NCBI GenBank assembly: GCA_003551925.1
Contig: PUOA01000042.1
Span: forward strand, 1 to 40,430
Reading direction: 5' to 3'
DNA length: 40,430 bases
Source: Paracoccaceae bacterium
GTDB taxonomy: Bacteria > Pseudomonadota > Alphaproteobacteria > Rhodobacterales > Rhodobacteraceae
The notes under the pieces were generated by a model, which saw nothing but the letters and a program-made list of their open reading frames with translations, was not told the origin of the DNA and searched no databases. Position numbers and translations under genes: made by a program. How positions within the stretch are numbered: position 1 is the first letter of the stretch; the number at the start of each line of letters is the position of its first letter. Below, piece by piece: positions 2,078 through 19,579 of this stretch.

Positions 2078-3090
2078 CCCTGTCCCGCCTGCCTGTATTC
2101 GATCAATCTCGGCGCCGCGCCCCGCCACCGCCGCAGCCGCCAGCGCAGCATCCCGGCCAGATTGGCGGGCTTCGACGCCATGAACAACAGCGCCGCGCCC
2201 AGCGCATCGCGCCCCGAAAACCCGCGCGCGCGAAACCGGGCCGCCATCCGCACGATCGCGGCCGCATAGAGCGCCGCGATCCCCGGCACCAGCACCGGCA
2301 CCAGCACCGGCACCAGCACCGGCGCCAGCACCGCCGCCACCAGCGGCAGCACCAGCGCCCAGGCCCAGGCGCGGCGCCGTTCGGCGCGGAAATAGCCGGG
2401 GTGCAGATCGCCCACCTGCGCGAAGCCGTGGCCCGCGCGCACCGCCCGGCGCCAGAACTGGCCGAAGCGCAGCATCCGCGCGTCATGCTCAGCCATGTCG
2501 GCGTCCATACGGTGCAGCGTCCAACCCGCGGCGCGCAGGCGCAGCGCCATCTCGTCATCCTCGGCGGCGATCACGTCGTCGCGGAACCCGCCGATCGCGT
2601 GCAGGGGGGCAAAGCGCATCAGCACCACACCGGTGCAGGCGGGCGTTTCGCCCGGCGCGGCGCGCCACTCGTCCGCGATCAGGCGGTTGTAGAGGCTCGC
2701 CTCGGGCGCGGCCTCGGCCGTGTGGCCGTGCACGGCGGCGGCGCGCGGGGTCGCGTCCAGGAACGCGGCCCCGCGTGCGACCCATGCGGGGCGCGGCACC
2801 GCGTCGCCGTCCTGCAACTGCACGAATTCGGGCGGATCGCCCGCCAGCGCCGCCAACCCCGCATTGCGCGCGCGCGCCGCGCTGAACGGGCGCGCAGGGT
2901 CGAGCGCGATCACCTCGGCCCCTTCCGCGCGCGCGCGCTCGGGGCTGCCATCATCCGAGCCGCTGTCGACATAGACCAGCCGGCGCACCTGCGGGGCCAG
3001 CGCGCGCAGGCAGGCGACCAGCCGGTCGCCCTCGTTTCGGCCGATGACGACCGCATCGGTGCGGCTGCGCGCGTTGCTGTGTTCGGGCAT
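2074..3090 (-). CDS. Glycosyltransferase family 2 (GT-A) with C-terminal hydrophobic region
   Basis: 338 aa; TDAVVIGRNEGDRLVACLRAL...LVYVDSGSDDGSPERARAEGAEV...ARNAGL...VQLQDGDAVP is typical GT2. Stop overlaps the downstream oxidoreductase start (ATGA). Confidence 0.85.
   Translation of the reverse strand: MPEHSNARSRTDAVVIGRNEGDRLVACLRALAPQVRRLVYVDSGSDDGSPERARAEGAEVIALDPARPFSAARARNAGLAALAGDPPEFVQLQDGDAVPRPAWVARGAAFLDATPRAAAVHGHTAEAAPEASLYNRLIADEWRAAPGETPACTGVVLMRFAPLHAIGGFRDDVIAAEDDEMALRLRAAGWTLHRMDADMAEHDARMLRFGQFWRRAVRAGHGFAQVGDLHPGYFRAERRRAWAWALVLPLVAAVLAPVLVPVLVPVLVPGIAALYAAAIVRMAARFRARGFSGRDALGAALLFMASKPANLAGMLRWRLRRWRGAAPRLIEYRQAGQG
2285..2332. repeat. 12-bp in-frame tandem repeat (ggcaccagcacc) x4 encoding VLVP/VLAP units in the GT2 C-terminus
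   Basis: ggcaccagcacc x3 followed by ggcgccagcacc. Confidence 0.9.
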
Positions 3091-14898: not shown

Positions 14899-16743
14899 TC
14901 ACCGTCCGACACCCGAGCGGCTGCTGACATGGCGCACCCTTGCGGCACGGGCGGGGCTTGCCGGGCGAGCGTCCATGCCAGAGGATTGCGGTGCGATGCC
15001 CGGCTCCAGGCCCGAACCCAGGCCCGAACCCAGGCCCGAACCCAGGCCCGAACCCAGGCCCGGCTCCAGGCCCAGATCCAGGCCCGAACCCAGGCCCGAA
15101 TCCAGGCCCTGTGCGGTTGTCCGTGGGGCGACGACCGGGTCGGTCACCTTCAGCGCGCCGGCTGCGGCCTGGGTCCGTGCACGCTCGAGGGTCGAGGGCG
15201 GGGGCGCGGGGAGCGCCGCGGCACGCAGACGGATCACAACCATGCGCCCGCGGGCCTCGTGCGCGGAGACATCCAATTGCGTCCCGTCGCGCAGCGTGAC
15301 GATTCCATTGACGGCGTTGCCCTGCCCGCCGCTTCGGCCCAGGGCTGCGATCCGGCTCCAGATCGGGTCCGACGCGGCGCGCGAGGCCCAGGCATCGACC
15401 GCCTGTTCGAGGCAGCGCGGAGAGGTCACGCTTTCGGGCGCCGTGCCCCAGAGCGTGTGGCAGGCGGTATTGGCCAGCACCAGCGTCCCGTCCGGGCCGA
15501 ACACTGCCTGCGCCTCGGGGAGCGCATCGAGTGCGGTCTGCGCGGCCTCGATCTGGGTGCGAAAGCTGCGCGCAAGACTGGTTTCGCTGGTCACATCCTC
15601 CAGGAAGAAGGCGAGCCCGCCATCAGGGTGTGGATGCCCCGCAACATGCAGCGTCTGCCCGCCGGGTTGGTGCCATTCGGCCTGATACCCCTCGCCTTCG
15701 GCGTGCTGCTCGATCTCCAGCAGGCTTGCGCGCCATGTCTTGAAGTCGCGCGGCTCCGGGAGCACACGCGCCTCGCGCAGCGCGTGCAGAACCTGTTCGA
15801 GGCTGGGTCGCCGGGCCAGAAAGCTTGACGGAAGCCCGGTCAGATCGGTCAGCGCGGGGTTGAAGATCTGCAGCCGCCGCGACCGGTCGAACACCGCCAG
15901 CCCGATCGGAAGGGTCGAAAACGCCCGTGTGAGCGTCTGAAGCAGCTCGCGCCGCGTGATTTCGGCTTGCGCCGCCGCATCTGCGGGGATCGCGTAATGA
16001 ACCACCCCGCTGTCGCAGGCGGAGGCGTGATGCTCGAACACATGCGGCGTGTGCGCGAGGGTCAGCGCGAGCAACGCGCCGGGCTCAGCGGCGCTGGTGT
16101 CGAACAGGATCGGCAGCGGCCAGCGCAGGTCCGCAAGCCCGTCGCCCGACCGCGCGGCCGCATCCAGATAGGCGCCGTTCGCCCAGATCACATTGCCCTG
16201 CGCGTCTTCACGCCAGATCAGGACGGGAGCGTTGCCGGCGCAGTGGCGCAGGGTCTTGAGCTCGTCTTCGAGCGCGGCGAAGCTGAACTGGTCGATCGAC
16301 ACCAGCCTGCCCGGGCTTTCCGTCTGCGCGAGCGCCAGATGCGCGAGTCCGCCCTTCCATTCCGCCTCGAGCGCGTAGTCGCTGCCGTCCGCGGCCGTGA
16401 GCGACAGCCGCCCGCGATCGGCCAGCGTCGCCAGCTGGGTGGTCAGATCGGGAAAATGCGGCTCAAGGAAGCGCAACAGCAGGCTCAGATGGTCGGCCGC
16501 GCCCGTGTCCTGCGATCCCGCCCCGTCGCGGATGGTCTTCAGCAACGCGTGCGCGCGGTCGTTCGCGTCGACGAGCGTGCGGTTGTCGAAGACGAAACGC
16601 GCGCTGGCCGACCCGTCCGCGAGTTCACCGATCCCGGTGACAGGCTGACGCCGCAGAACCACATGCGCGAGCATCAGCGCCGCGAGCGCGCCGAGCACGG
16701 ACGTCGCCACGATGACGACGGGCAGCAACAGGGTCGGTGTCAT
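14899..16743 (-). CDS. divL: Membrane-anchored multi-PAS protein without recognizable kinase domain (DivL-like)
   Basis: 614 aa; N-terminal TM MTPTLLLPVVIVATSVLGALAALMLAHVVL; PAS segments LLQTLTRAFSTLPIGLAVFDRSRRLQIFNPALTDLTGLP and LDALPEAQAVFGPDGTLVLANTACHTLWG; ends in a GLGS-repeat tail with no HisKA/HATPase. Position beside regB fits my recollection of R. capsulatus divL. Symbol is tentative. Confidence 0.65.
   Translation of the reverse strand: MTPTLLLPVVIVATSVLGALAALMLAHVVLRRQPVTGIGELADGSASARFVFDNRTLVDANDRAHALLKTIRDGAGSQDTGAADHLSLLLRFLEPHFPDLTTQLATLADRGRLSLTAADGSDYALEAEWKGGLAHLALAQTESPGRLVSIDQFSFAALEDELKTLRHCAGNAPVLIWREDAQGNVIWANGAYLDAAARSGDGLADLRWPLPILFDTSAAEPGALLALTLAHTPHVFEHHASACDSGVVHYAIPADAAAQAEITRRELLQTLTRAFSTLPIGLAVFDRSRRLQIFNPALTDLTGLPSSFLARRPSLEQVLHALREARVLPEPRDFKTWRASLLEIEQHAEGEGYQAEWHQPGGQTLHVAGHPHPDGGLAFFLEDVTSETSLARSFRTQIEAAQTALDALPEAQAVFGPDGTLVLANTACHTLWGTAPESVTSPRCLEQAVDAWASRAASDPIWSRIAALGRSGGQGNAVNGIVTLRDGTQLDVSAHEARGRMVVIRLRAAALPAPPPSTLERARTQAAAGALKVTDPVVAPRTTAQGLDSGLGSGLDLGLEPGLGSGLGSGLGSGLGSGLEPGIAPQSSGMDARPASPARAARVRHVSSRSGVGR
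14999..15106. repeat. 12-bp in-frame tandem repeat (cccgaacccagg and variants) x9 encoding GLGS/GLEP/GLDS units
   Basis: Nine consecutive 12-mers; protein GLDSGLGSGLDLGLEPGLGSGLGSGLGSGLGSGLEPG. Confidence 0.92.
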
Positions 16744-16795
16744 GCGAATCTCCGTCGCAGGTGCCGAGCACTTGCGTCACCATCGACAGAATTGG

Positions 16796-16810
16796 TTAAG
16801 GCGGGGTTAA
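16796..16810 (-). promoter_or_regulatory. Full CtrA-type binding site TTAA-N7-TTAA upstream of the divL-like gene
   Basis: Plus ggttaaggcggggttaag = minus cTTAACCCCGCCTTAACC, i.e. TTAACC-N5-TTAACC, about 53 bp upstream of the ATG at 16743. Confidence 0.7.
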
Positions 16811-16853
16811 GCCCGGGACGGGTCGCGATTTTCCCGCGTGGTGCCGCGCCCGT

Positions 16854-18239
16854 TCAGTGGGTCGGGACATTCGGACCCGCGGGTGCCGCCGGGTCGGCTT
16901 CGATCCGGTCGCGCGGCCAGGCAAGCTCGACCAGCGCGCCGCCCGTGCGCGCCTGGGGTGGCAGCCCCGGCGTGTCGCGCGCGGTGTTGGCGAAGCCCAG
17001 TCGCGCTCCGGTGCGTTCGAGCAACGTCTTGGCGATGAACAGGCCCAGCCCCATGCCGTCGTAGCCCGGCCGCTCCGATCCGCCTGCCGCCCCGCGCCTG
17101 CGGCGCAGGAACGGCTCGCCGATGCGGGCGATCAGTTGCGGATCGAAGCCGGGGCCGTCATCGGCCAGGCGCAGGCGCAGCTGCGCGTCGTCCCAGTCGG
17201 CGATGACCCAGACCTGCGAGCCGGCGAAATCGACCGCATTCTGAATCAGGTTGCGCAGCCCGTGCACGATCTCGGGGCGCCGCTGGATCACGGGCTGGCG
17301 CTGGTCCGCGCCGGGCGCAGGGTTGAACACGAAGGCGATGTTGCGGCCACGATTCACATGCGGCTCGGCGGCTTCGCGCAGCACCGCTTCGAGCGGGGCG
17401 TGCCGCATCTGGGTGTCCTGCTTGCCCGCGGGGCCCATCGCGCGCAGGATGTCGCGGCAGCGGTCGGCCTGGCTGCGGATCAGCTCGGCGTCCTCGCGCA
17501 GATCCGGGTGGTGGGCCAGTTCGGTGGCCAACTCGCTGCTGACCAGCTTGATCGTGGCCAGCGGCGTGCCCAGTTCATGCGCCGCCGCCGCCACCACGCC
17601 GCCCAGATCGGTCAGCTTCTGCTCACGCGCGAGCGCCATCTGCGCGGCCAGCAGCGCGTCGCTCATGGTGTCGATTTCGCGCGTGACGCGCCCGGCGTAG
17701 AAGGCCTGGAACACGATGCCCGTGACGATCGCCAGCCAGAAGCCGAAGGAAAACAGCGGGTCGATCGCCAGCACCGAGCCATCGGCGAAGCGCAGCGGCT
17801 CATATGTCACCGCCAGCAGTGAGATCAGCACCACCGCCACCCCGCCCAGAAACAGCGTCGCGCGCATCGGCAGCGCCGAGGCCGAGATCGTCACCGGCCC
17901 CAGCATCAGCAGCGCGAAGGGGTTGGTCAGCCCCCCGGTCAGATACAGCAGCACGCCAAGCTGGGCGATGTCGAACAGCAGCGTCAGCATGGTCTCGCCT
18001 TCGGAGAGGCGCTTGTTTTCGGGAAACAGCACCGCAGCCAGCAGGTTCGACAGCACCGACGCGCCTACCACCGCATAGCACAGGCCCAGCGGGAGCGTGA
18101 TGTCCAGATACCGATCCGCGACGGTGATCGCCACAAGCTGGCCGAACACGGCCAGCCAGCGCAGCAGCGTCAGCGTGCGCAGCCGGATCCACTGGCCGCG
18201 ATTCTCGCGGCTGGAGGGGCCGAGCCCGGTGGCATCCAT
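16854..18239 (-). CDS. regB: Redox-sensing histidine kinase RegB/PrrB
   Basis: Six-TM N-terminus with GGLTNPF (quinone-site motif), H-box AAAAHELGTPLATIKL, redox-Cys region LIRSQADRCRDILRAMG, and N/G boxes. Confidence 0.95.
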   Translation of the reverse strand: MDATGLGPSSRENRGQWIRLRTLTLLRWLAVFGQLVAITVADRYLDITLPLGLCYAVVGASVLSNLLAAVLFPENKRLSEGETMLTLLFDIAQLGVLLYLTGGLTNPFALLMLGPVTISASALPMRATLFLGGVAVVLISLLAVTYEPLRFADGSVLAIDPLFSFGFWLAIVTGIVFQAFYAGRVTREIDTMSDALLAAQMALAREQKLTDLGGVVAAAAHELGTPLATIKLVSSELATELAHHPDLREDAELIRSQADRCRDILRAMGPAGKQDTQMRHAPLEAVLREAAEPHVNRGRNIAFVFNPAPGADQRQPVIQRRPEIVHGLRNLIQNAVDFAGSQVWVIADWDDAQLRLRLADDGPGFDPQLIARIGEPFLRRRRGAAGGSERPGYDGMGLGLFIAKTLLERTGARLGFANTARDTPGLPPQARTGGALVELAWPRDRIEADPAAPAGPNVPTH

Positions 18240-18276
18240 TCGCTGGGTCCTGTTGTCACATCCGGTCGAGCGTGGA

Positions 18277-18305
18277 TTGATAAGCGCGGCGCGTTGGGGC
18301 ATCAA
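18277..18305. promoter_or_regulatory. Putative divergent regB/senC promoter: minus TTGATG-N17-TATCAA; plus TTGATA-N17-CATCAA
   Basis: The same two hexamers, 17 bp apart, read as a promoter on both strands. About 38 bp from the regB ATG and 28 bp from the senC ATG. Confidence 0.45.
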
Positions 18306-18988: not shown

Positions 18989-19012
18989 CGGGTCATGAAC
19001 AGGATCATTCGG

Positions 19013-19579
19013 ATGACAGACGCCTCTGCCGACGCTGCCCTGCCGGAGATCGGTGACGATCCGTCGCTGCTTCTGGTGGATGATGACGAAGTGTTCCTGC
19101 GCCGTCTCGCCCGCGCCATGGAGAAGCGCGGATTCGATGTCGCAACGGCCCAGAGCGTGGCCCAGGGCAAGCGCCTTGCGGTTGACGGCATGCCGGCCTA
19201 CGCCGTGGTCGATCTGCGGCTGGAGGATGGGAACGGGCTCGACGTGGTCGAGGCGCTGCGCGCACGCCGCCCCGACAGCCGGATCGTCGTGCTGACGGGC
19301 TATGGTGCGATCGCGACCGCCGTGGCGGCGGTCAAGATCGGTGCGACCGACTACCTGTCCAAGCCGGCCGACGCAGACGACGTGGTGCGCGCGCTGCTGT
19401 CAAGCGGCGAGGCGCTGCCCGAGCCGCCCGACAACCCGATGTCGGCCGATCGCGTGCGCTGGGAGCATATCCAGCGGGTTTACGAGCAATGCGACCGGAA
19501 CGTGTCGGAAACCGCGCGACGGCTGAGCATGCACCGGCGCACATTGCAGCGGATCCTCGCCAAGCGCGGGCCACGCTGA
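19013..19579 (+). CDS. regA: Response regulator RegA/PrrA/ActR
   Basis: PSLLLVDDDEVFLRRLARAMEKRGFDVATAQSV...VLTGYGAIATAVAAVKIGATDYLSKPADADDV; C-terminal Fis HTH HIQRVYEQCDRNVSETARRLSMHRRTLQRILAKRGPR. The ORF start at 18995 is possible, but MTDAS at 19013 is preferred. Confidence 0.95.
   Translation: MTDASADAALPEIGDDPSLLLVDDDEVFLRRLARAMEKRGFDVATAQSVAQGKRLAVDGMPAYAVVDLRLEDGNGLDVVEALRARRPDSRIVVLTGYGAIATAVAAVKIGATDYLSKPADADDVVRALLSSGEALPEPPDNPMSADRVRWEHIQRVYEQCDRNVSETARRLSMHRRTLQRILAKRGPR

Follow-up and report, generated by a model that had tools for sequence, protein, structure and literature searches.

A CtrA-type box conserved upstream of kinase-less divL in Rhodobacteraceae points to CtrA feedback on its own phosphorelay

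In the DivL-CckA module of Caulobacter crescentus, DivL acts on CckA; DivL of the Caulobacter type is a long, Tyr-bearing pseudo-kinase that is read by DivK, and its PAS region is homologous to that of the protein described below. In Rhodobacter capsulatus, DivL reportedly acts on CckA as well, and Westbye et al., in work of 2018 from which we take the sign of DivL action, are said to have found that loss of DivL lowers CtrA phosphorylation. In Rhodobacterales, the short form of DivL is general (PMC9430884). For this order, it was predicted by Brilli et al. (2010) that cckA and the gene of the kinase-less DivL are both under CtrA control, and a possible feedback was noted (PMC2877005). Their 'cluster B' prediction, made with a Caulobacter matrix on the few genomes of the time, is like the present case in the regulator, the target, the kinase-less DivL and the feedback idea. 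In Dinoroseobacter shibae, Wang et al. (2014) described a CtrA site at the divL promoter, and they saw divL expressed less when ctrA, cckA or chpT was mutated (PMC4046655). CtrA-divL feedback is thus not new, having been predicted for Rhodobacterales in 2010 and accompanied by expression data from Dinoroseobacter in 2014. Counting against it, the predicted phosphorelay sites given by Koppenhoefer et al. (2019), in the parts of that study drawn on here, are those of ctrA and cckA, not divL (PMC6473078). Compared with the 2010 prediction, our analysis counts the exact motif, with a spacing control, and its position in about 89 genera, and tests the associated GANTC site; it concerns another genus than D. 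shibae and draws on sequence, whereas for D. shibae expression data exist. In Rhodobacter sphaeroides, a CtrA box precedes osp, the gene of another CckA regulator, by 54 bp, nearly the same distance as at divL (PMC9430884). Osp inhibits CckA, whereas DivL is believed to promote phosphorylation from CckA to CtrA.

The window, the whole 40,430-nt stretch of DNA analysed here, carries the gene of a 614-aa PAS protein on the minus strand (14899..16743). A domain search found PAS_7 at residues 277-387 and PAS_4 at 405-464, an N-terminal hydrophobic stretch is present, and the same search found no HisKA or HATPase domain in the 614 residues, only PAS domains; a PDB search with the protein gave no match. 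A 14-row family profile led to long proteins, mostly open frames of about 700-1080 aa, in other alphaproteobacterial families. The H-boxes of three of them read SYELRTPL, SYQLRTPL and SYQLRNPL, with Tyr where kinases have His, a replacement that is the mark of DivL. Because these profile homologues are long DivL proteins with the H-box Tyr, the window gene is, by homology, the short, kinase-less DivL of Rhodobacteraceae, in agreement with the preliminary description, in which it was called a kinase-less DivL-like gene. Of 121 family genomes searched, 110 have a divL homologue, and all five genomes of the genus have one. The C-terminal tail of the protein (window 14970-15110) is a degenerate Gly-Ser-Leu repeat, GLGSGLGSGLGSGLGSGLEPG. 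Upstream and in the same direction lies regB, encoding an ActS/PrrB/RegB redox histidine kinase (16854..18305, minus strand; the frame is taken from the first TTG, and the true start may be internal), and divergent from it is regA, encoding an ActR/PrrA/RegA response regulator (18995..19579, plus strand).

The 110-bp gap from the regB stop to the divL start (16744..16853, minus strand) holds the presumed divL promoter and a full CtrA-type box, TTAA-N7-TTAA, at 16796..16810. On the minus strand, the box reads TTAACCCCGCCTTAA from 16810 to 16796 and is followed by CC (TTAACCCCGCCTTAACC from 16810 downward); the forward-strand letters at 16796-16810 are TTAAGGCGGGGTTAA. The exact pattern occurs only once in the window and not at all in 100 dinucleotide shuffles. 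In the whole genome of the same organism (3.02 Mb), it was found at 8 places, two of them overlapping, compared with 2 for the backwards control pattern. The preliminary description had thus been right in placing a full box upstream of the PAS gene; the distance from the box end to the divL ATG (16743), given there as about 53 bp, measures 52 bp.

To follow the box through the family, we used two partly overlapping sets of loci: the divL upstream regions of 93 family genomes from about 89 genera (each genus represented once, except for that of the window, with weaker partial matches left out) and 70 named loci. Of the 93 genomes, 86 have an exact box no more than 150 bp from the start of divL, and so have 68 of the 70 named loci, with one further locus differing by a single mismatch; for both sets together, the exact box within 150 bp was counted in 154 of 163 loci. 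Among the other seven genomes of the first set, five carry a box that differs by a single letter and lies about equally far from divL, and in G087 an exact box precedes a start that is misplaced; G024 is the only genome of the 93 in which no box was seen upstream of divL. Conservation of the motif in the orthologous regB-divL gap, on which the preliminary description had let its proposal stand or fall, is therefore borne out. All five genomes of the genus have the box. The box-to-start distance has a median of 50 bp (quartiles 45-55). Furthermore, a half-site spacing of 7 was found in 86/93 regions, any other spacing between 0 and 20 in at most 3/93, and the control stretch from -1000 to -300 contained a box in 1/93. 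Because of this conservation, the box is far beyond chance, and a chance occurrence is ruled out by the shuffles together with the conservation and its spacing control. The second half-site mostly runs into CC and then an A/T-rich stretch, forming an oriented TTAACC(A/T)TT extension, of which the window box has the oriented TTAACC, and a weak A/T element lies near +27 to +32 in the family upstream regions. Since the exact box has been kept while DivL identity to the window protein is only about 33-48% in the sampled family rows, its conservation points to selection on the site.

We consider it probable, at roughly 85%, that the box is a functional site for phosphorylated CtrA (CtrA~P) and the upstream part of a divL promoter that CtrA activates, so that a positive loop is closed. 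Were transcription to begin near +39, counted from the first base of the box, the box centre would lie near -32, as is usual for promoters that CtrA activates. The oriented TTAACC(A/T)TT extension and the weak A/T element would fit an activated promoter of this kind, with a putative -10 element and start site. In this organism, CtrA~P would be expected to bind the box and activate divL, with transcription beginning about 25 nt past the box, inside the regB-divL gap; with a start site there, divL would not depend solely on read-through from regB. DivL would in turn favour the kinase activity of CckA and hence ChpT-mediated phosphorylation of CtrA, and the result would be a positive transcriptional loop beside the CtrA-cckA loop. 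CtrA feedback on divL, as put forward in the preliminary description and predicted earlier in the literature, is the best reading of the locus, given how the box is conserved in the family. Conservation of the box across about 89 genera turns a few-genome prediction into a near-universal feature of Rhodobacteraceae, and would put CtrA-to-divL feedback at the core of the family's circuit that controls motility and also, in the case of R. capsulatus, gene transfer agents. The divL box itself offers one small, defined mutable site.

CtrA might instead bind the box and repress divL, which would make a negative loop such as Osp forms in R. sphaeroides. CtrA can repress where its site overlaps the promoter core, and the Osp loop shows that a negative CtrA loop exists in the same order (PMC9430884); however, in D. 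shibae, mutation of ctrA, cckA or chpT makes divL expression fall rather than rise (PMC4046655), and the box-to-start distance of about 50 bp resembles the 54 bp of osp, which is itself CtrA-activated (PMC9430884). Repression is therefore unlikely. An account that we regard as improbable is that most divL expression comes from read-through of regB, with the box of minor effect, or that the box serves another TTAA-type regulator of the Fnr/Dnr kind. The arrangement of the genes lends itself to the former, since regB is the same-direction upstream neighbour in 155/163 loci, with a median gap of 113 bp; yet the box is also present in all of the other 8 loci, in which regB was not seen upstream. 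As for the latter, the TTAAC half-site is common to Dnr and Fnr sites, and FnrL is reported to bind near divL in R. capsulatus (PMC7232146), but Dnr/Fnr sites are inverted, TTAAC-N4-GTCAA, whereas the divL box is a direct repeat, TTAA-N7-TTAA, of invariant spacing.

The preliminary description had also noted GAATC, a GANTC (CcrM-type) target, at 16746..16750, overlapping the ribosome-binding region of divL. The site is indeed there, as part of the Shine-Dalgarno stretch GGAGATTCGCATG on the minus strand; a regulatory role for it is unsupported. That it would add CcrM/GcrA methylation timing of divL to CtrA control, as that description went on to suggest, could draw on the presence of CcrM in the same genome (a RAMA-domain protein, 389-aa open frame) and on the rarity of GANTC in the window, where it is depleted about fourfold (32 sites, against 140 expected from shuffles), while all five genomes of the genus have one between box and ATG. 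However, GANTC occurs in 37 of 153 box-to-ATG intervals, against a shuffle average of 30 and with 13 of 200 shuffles reaching 37, and it is not conserved at a fixed promoter place: of the five genomes of the genus, two have it at -7 and three at -30 or -31. In addition, the CtrA circuit of the Rhodobacterales cluster has been described as isolated from GcrA and CcrM (Brilli et al., PMC2877005). With a near-chance frequency and no fixed position, GANTC is ruled out as a methylation switch, and we hold methylation timing of divL to be very improbable.

The genome that contains the window encodes ChpT and a 688-aa hybrid kinase whose best match is to CckA models, though below their curated cut-offs. 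The cckA gene (L206:918-2984, minus strand) is itself preceded by a near-full box, TTAA-N7-TTTA, at 3032-3046, 47 bp before its start. Neither ctrA nor sciP was found in this assembly, a point against CtrA control of divL here, whereas ctrA is present in all four congeners, in which ctrA and sciP adjoin mnmA. What the assembly has of mnmA starts only with residue 271, at base 3 of contig C312 (C312:1-329), just where sciP and ctrA would be expected next. Because the neighbouring mnmA is cut at a contig end, the absence of ctrA is likely an assembly gap; a contig break at the ctrA locus is the simplest account, and the strain would likely carry the gene. True loss of ctrA was set aside for the same truncation of mnmA at base 3 of C312.

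Across 120 family genomes, ctrA and divL were both found in 107 and neither in 7, with ctrA alone in 5 and divL alone in 1; their joint loss is significant by Fisher's test at p = 1e-7, a value uncorrected for kinship. Six of the seven genomes lacking both (G014, G029, G060, G092, G104 and G111) are at least 95% complete, G111 being scored as divL-less since its sole match is a weak PAS match. To judge from gene content, the absence of both genes from near-complete genomes is joint loss of the pathway, which favours a functional tie between divL and ctrA.

Outside the family, the exact box was found in 3 of 27 DivL loci, nearly all of them long; as the long genes were taken with unrefined starts, some boxes may have been missed. 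In this sparse class-wide sample, the box thus accompanies short DivL in 154/163 loci and long DivL in 3/27, two of these from one family, so that long homologues of the Caulobacter type seldom have it. The protein tree has a branch with full support, on one side of which stand the short DivLs. We tentatively suggest, as a possibility rather than an expectation, that on the Rhodobacteraceae stem the divL box was gained as DivK and the pseudo-kinase part of DivL were lost, and that control of CckA may have moved from a DivK-DivL protein switch to transcriptional self-feedback on divL. The three long divL genes with an exact box (L228, L229 and L237), two of which come from one family, may show a pre-truncation state.

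Other exact boxes in the genome of the window have as neighbours the genes of argininosuccinate lyase and of an MshEN-domain glycosyltransferase, or lie in a fliP neighbourhood. Finally, two CtrA boxes overlap in tandem, TTAACGTGGCCTTAACGAAACCTTAACC (L003:2001-2026), 43 bp upstream of a gene whose product has a staphylococcal-nuclease-like (SNase) domain.
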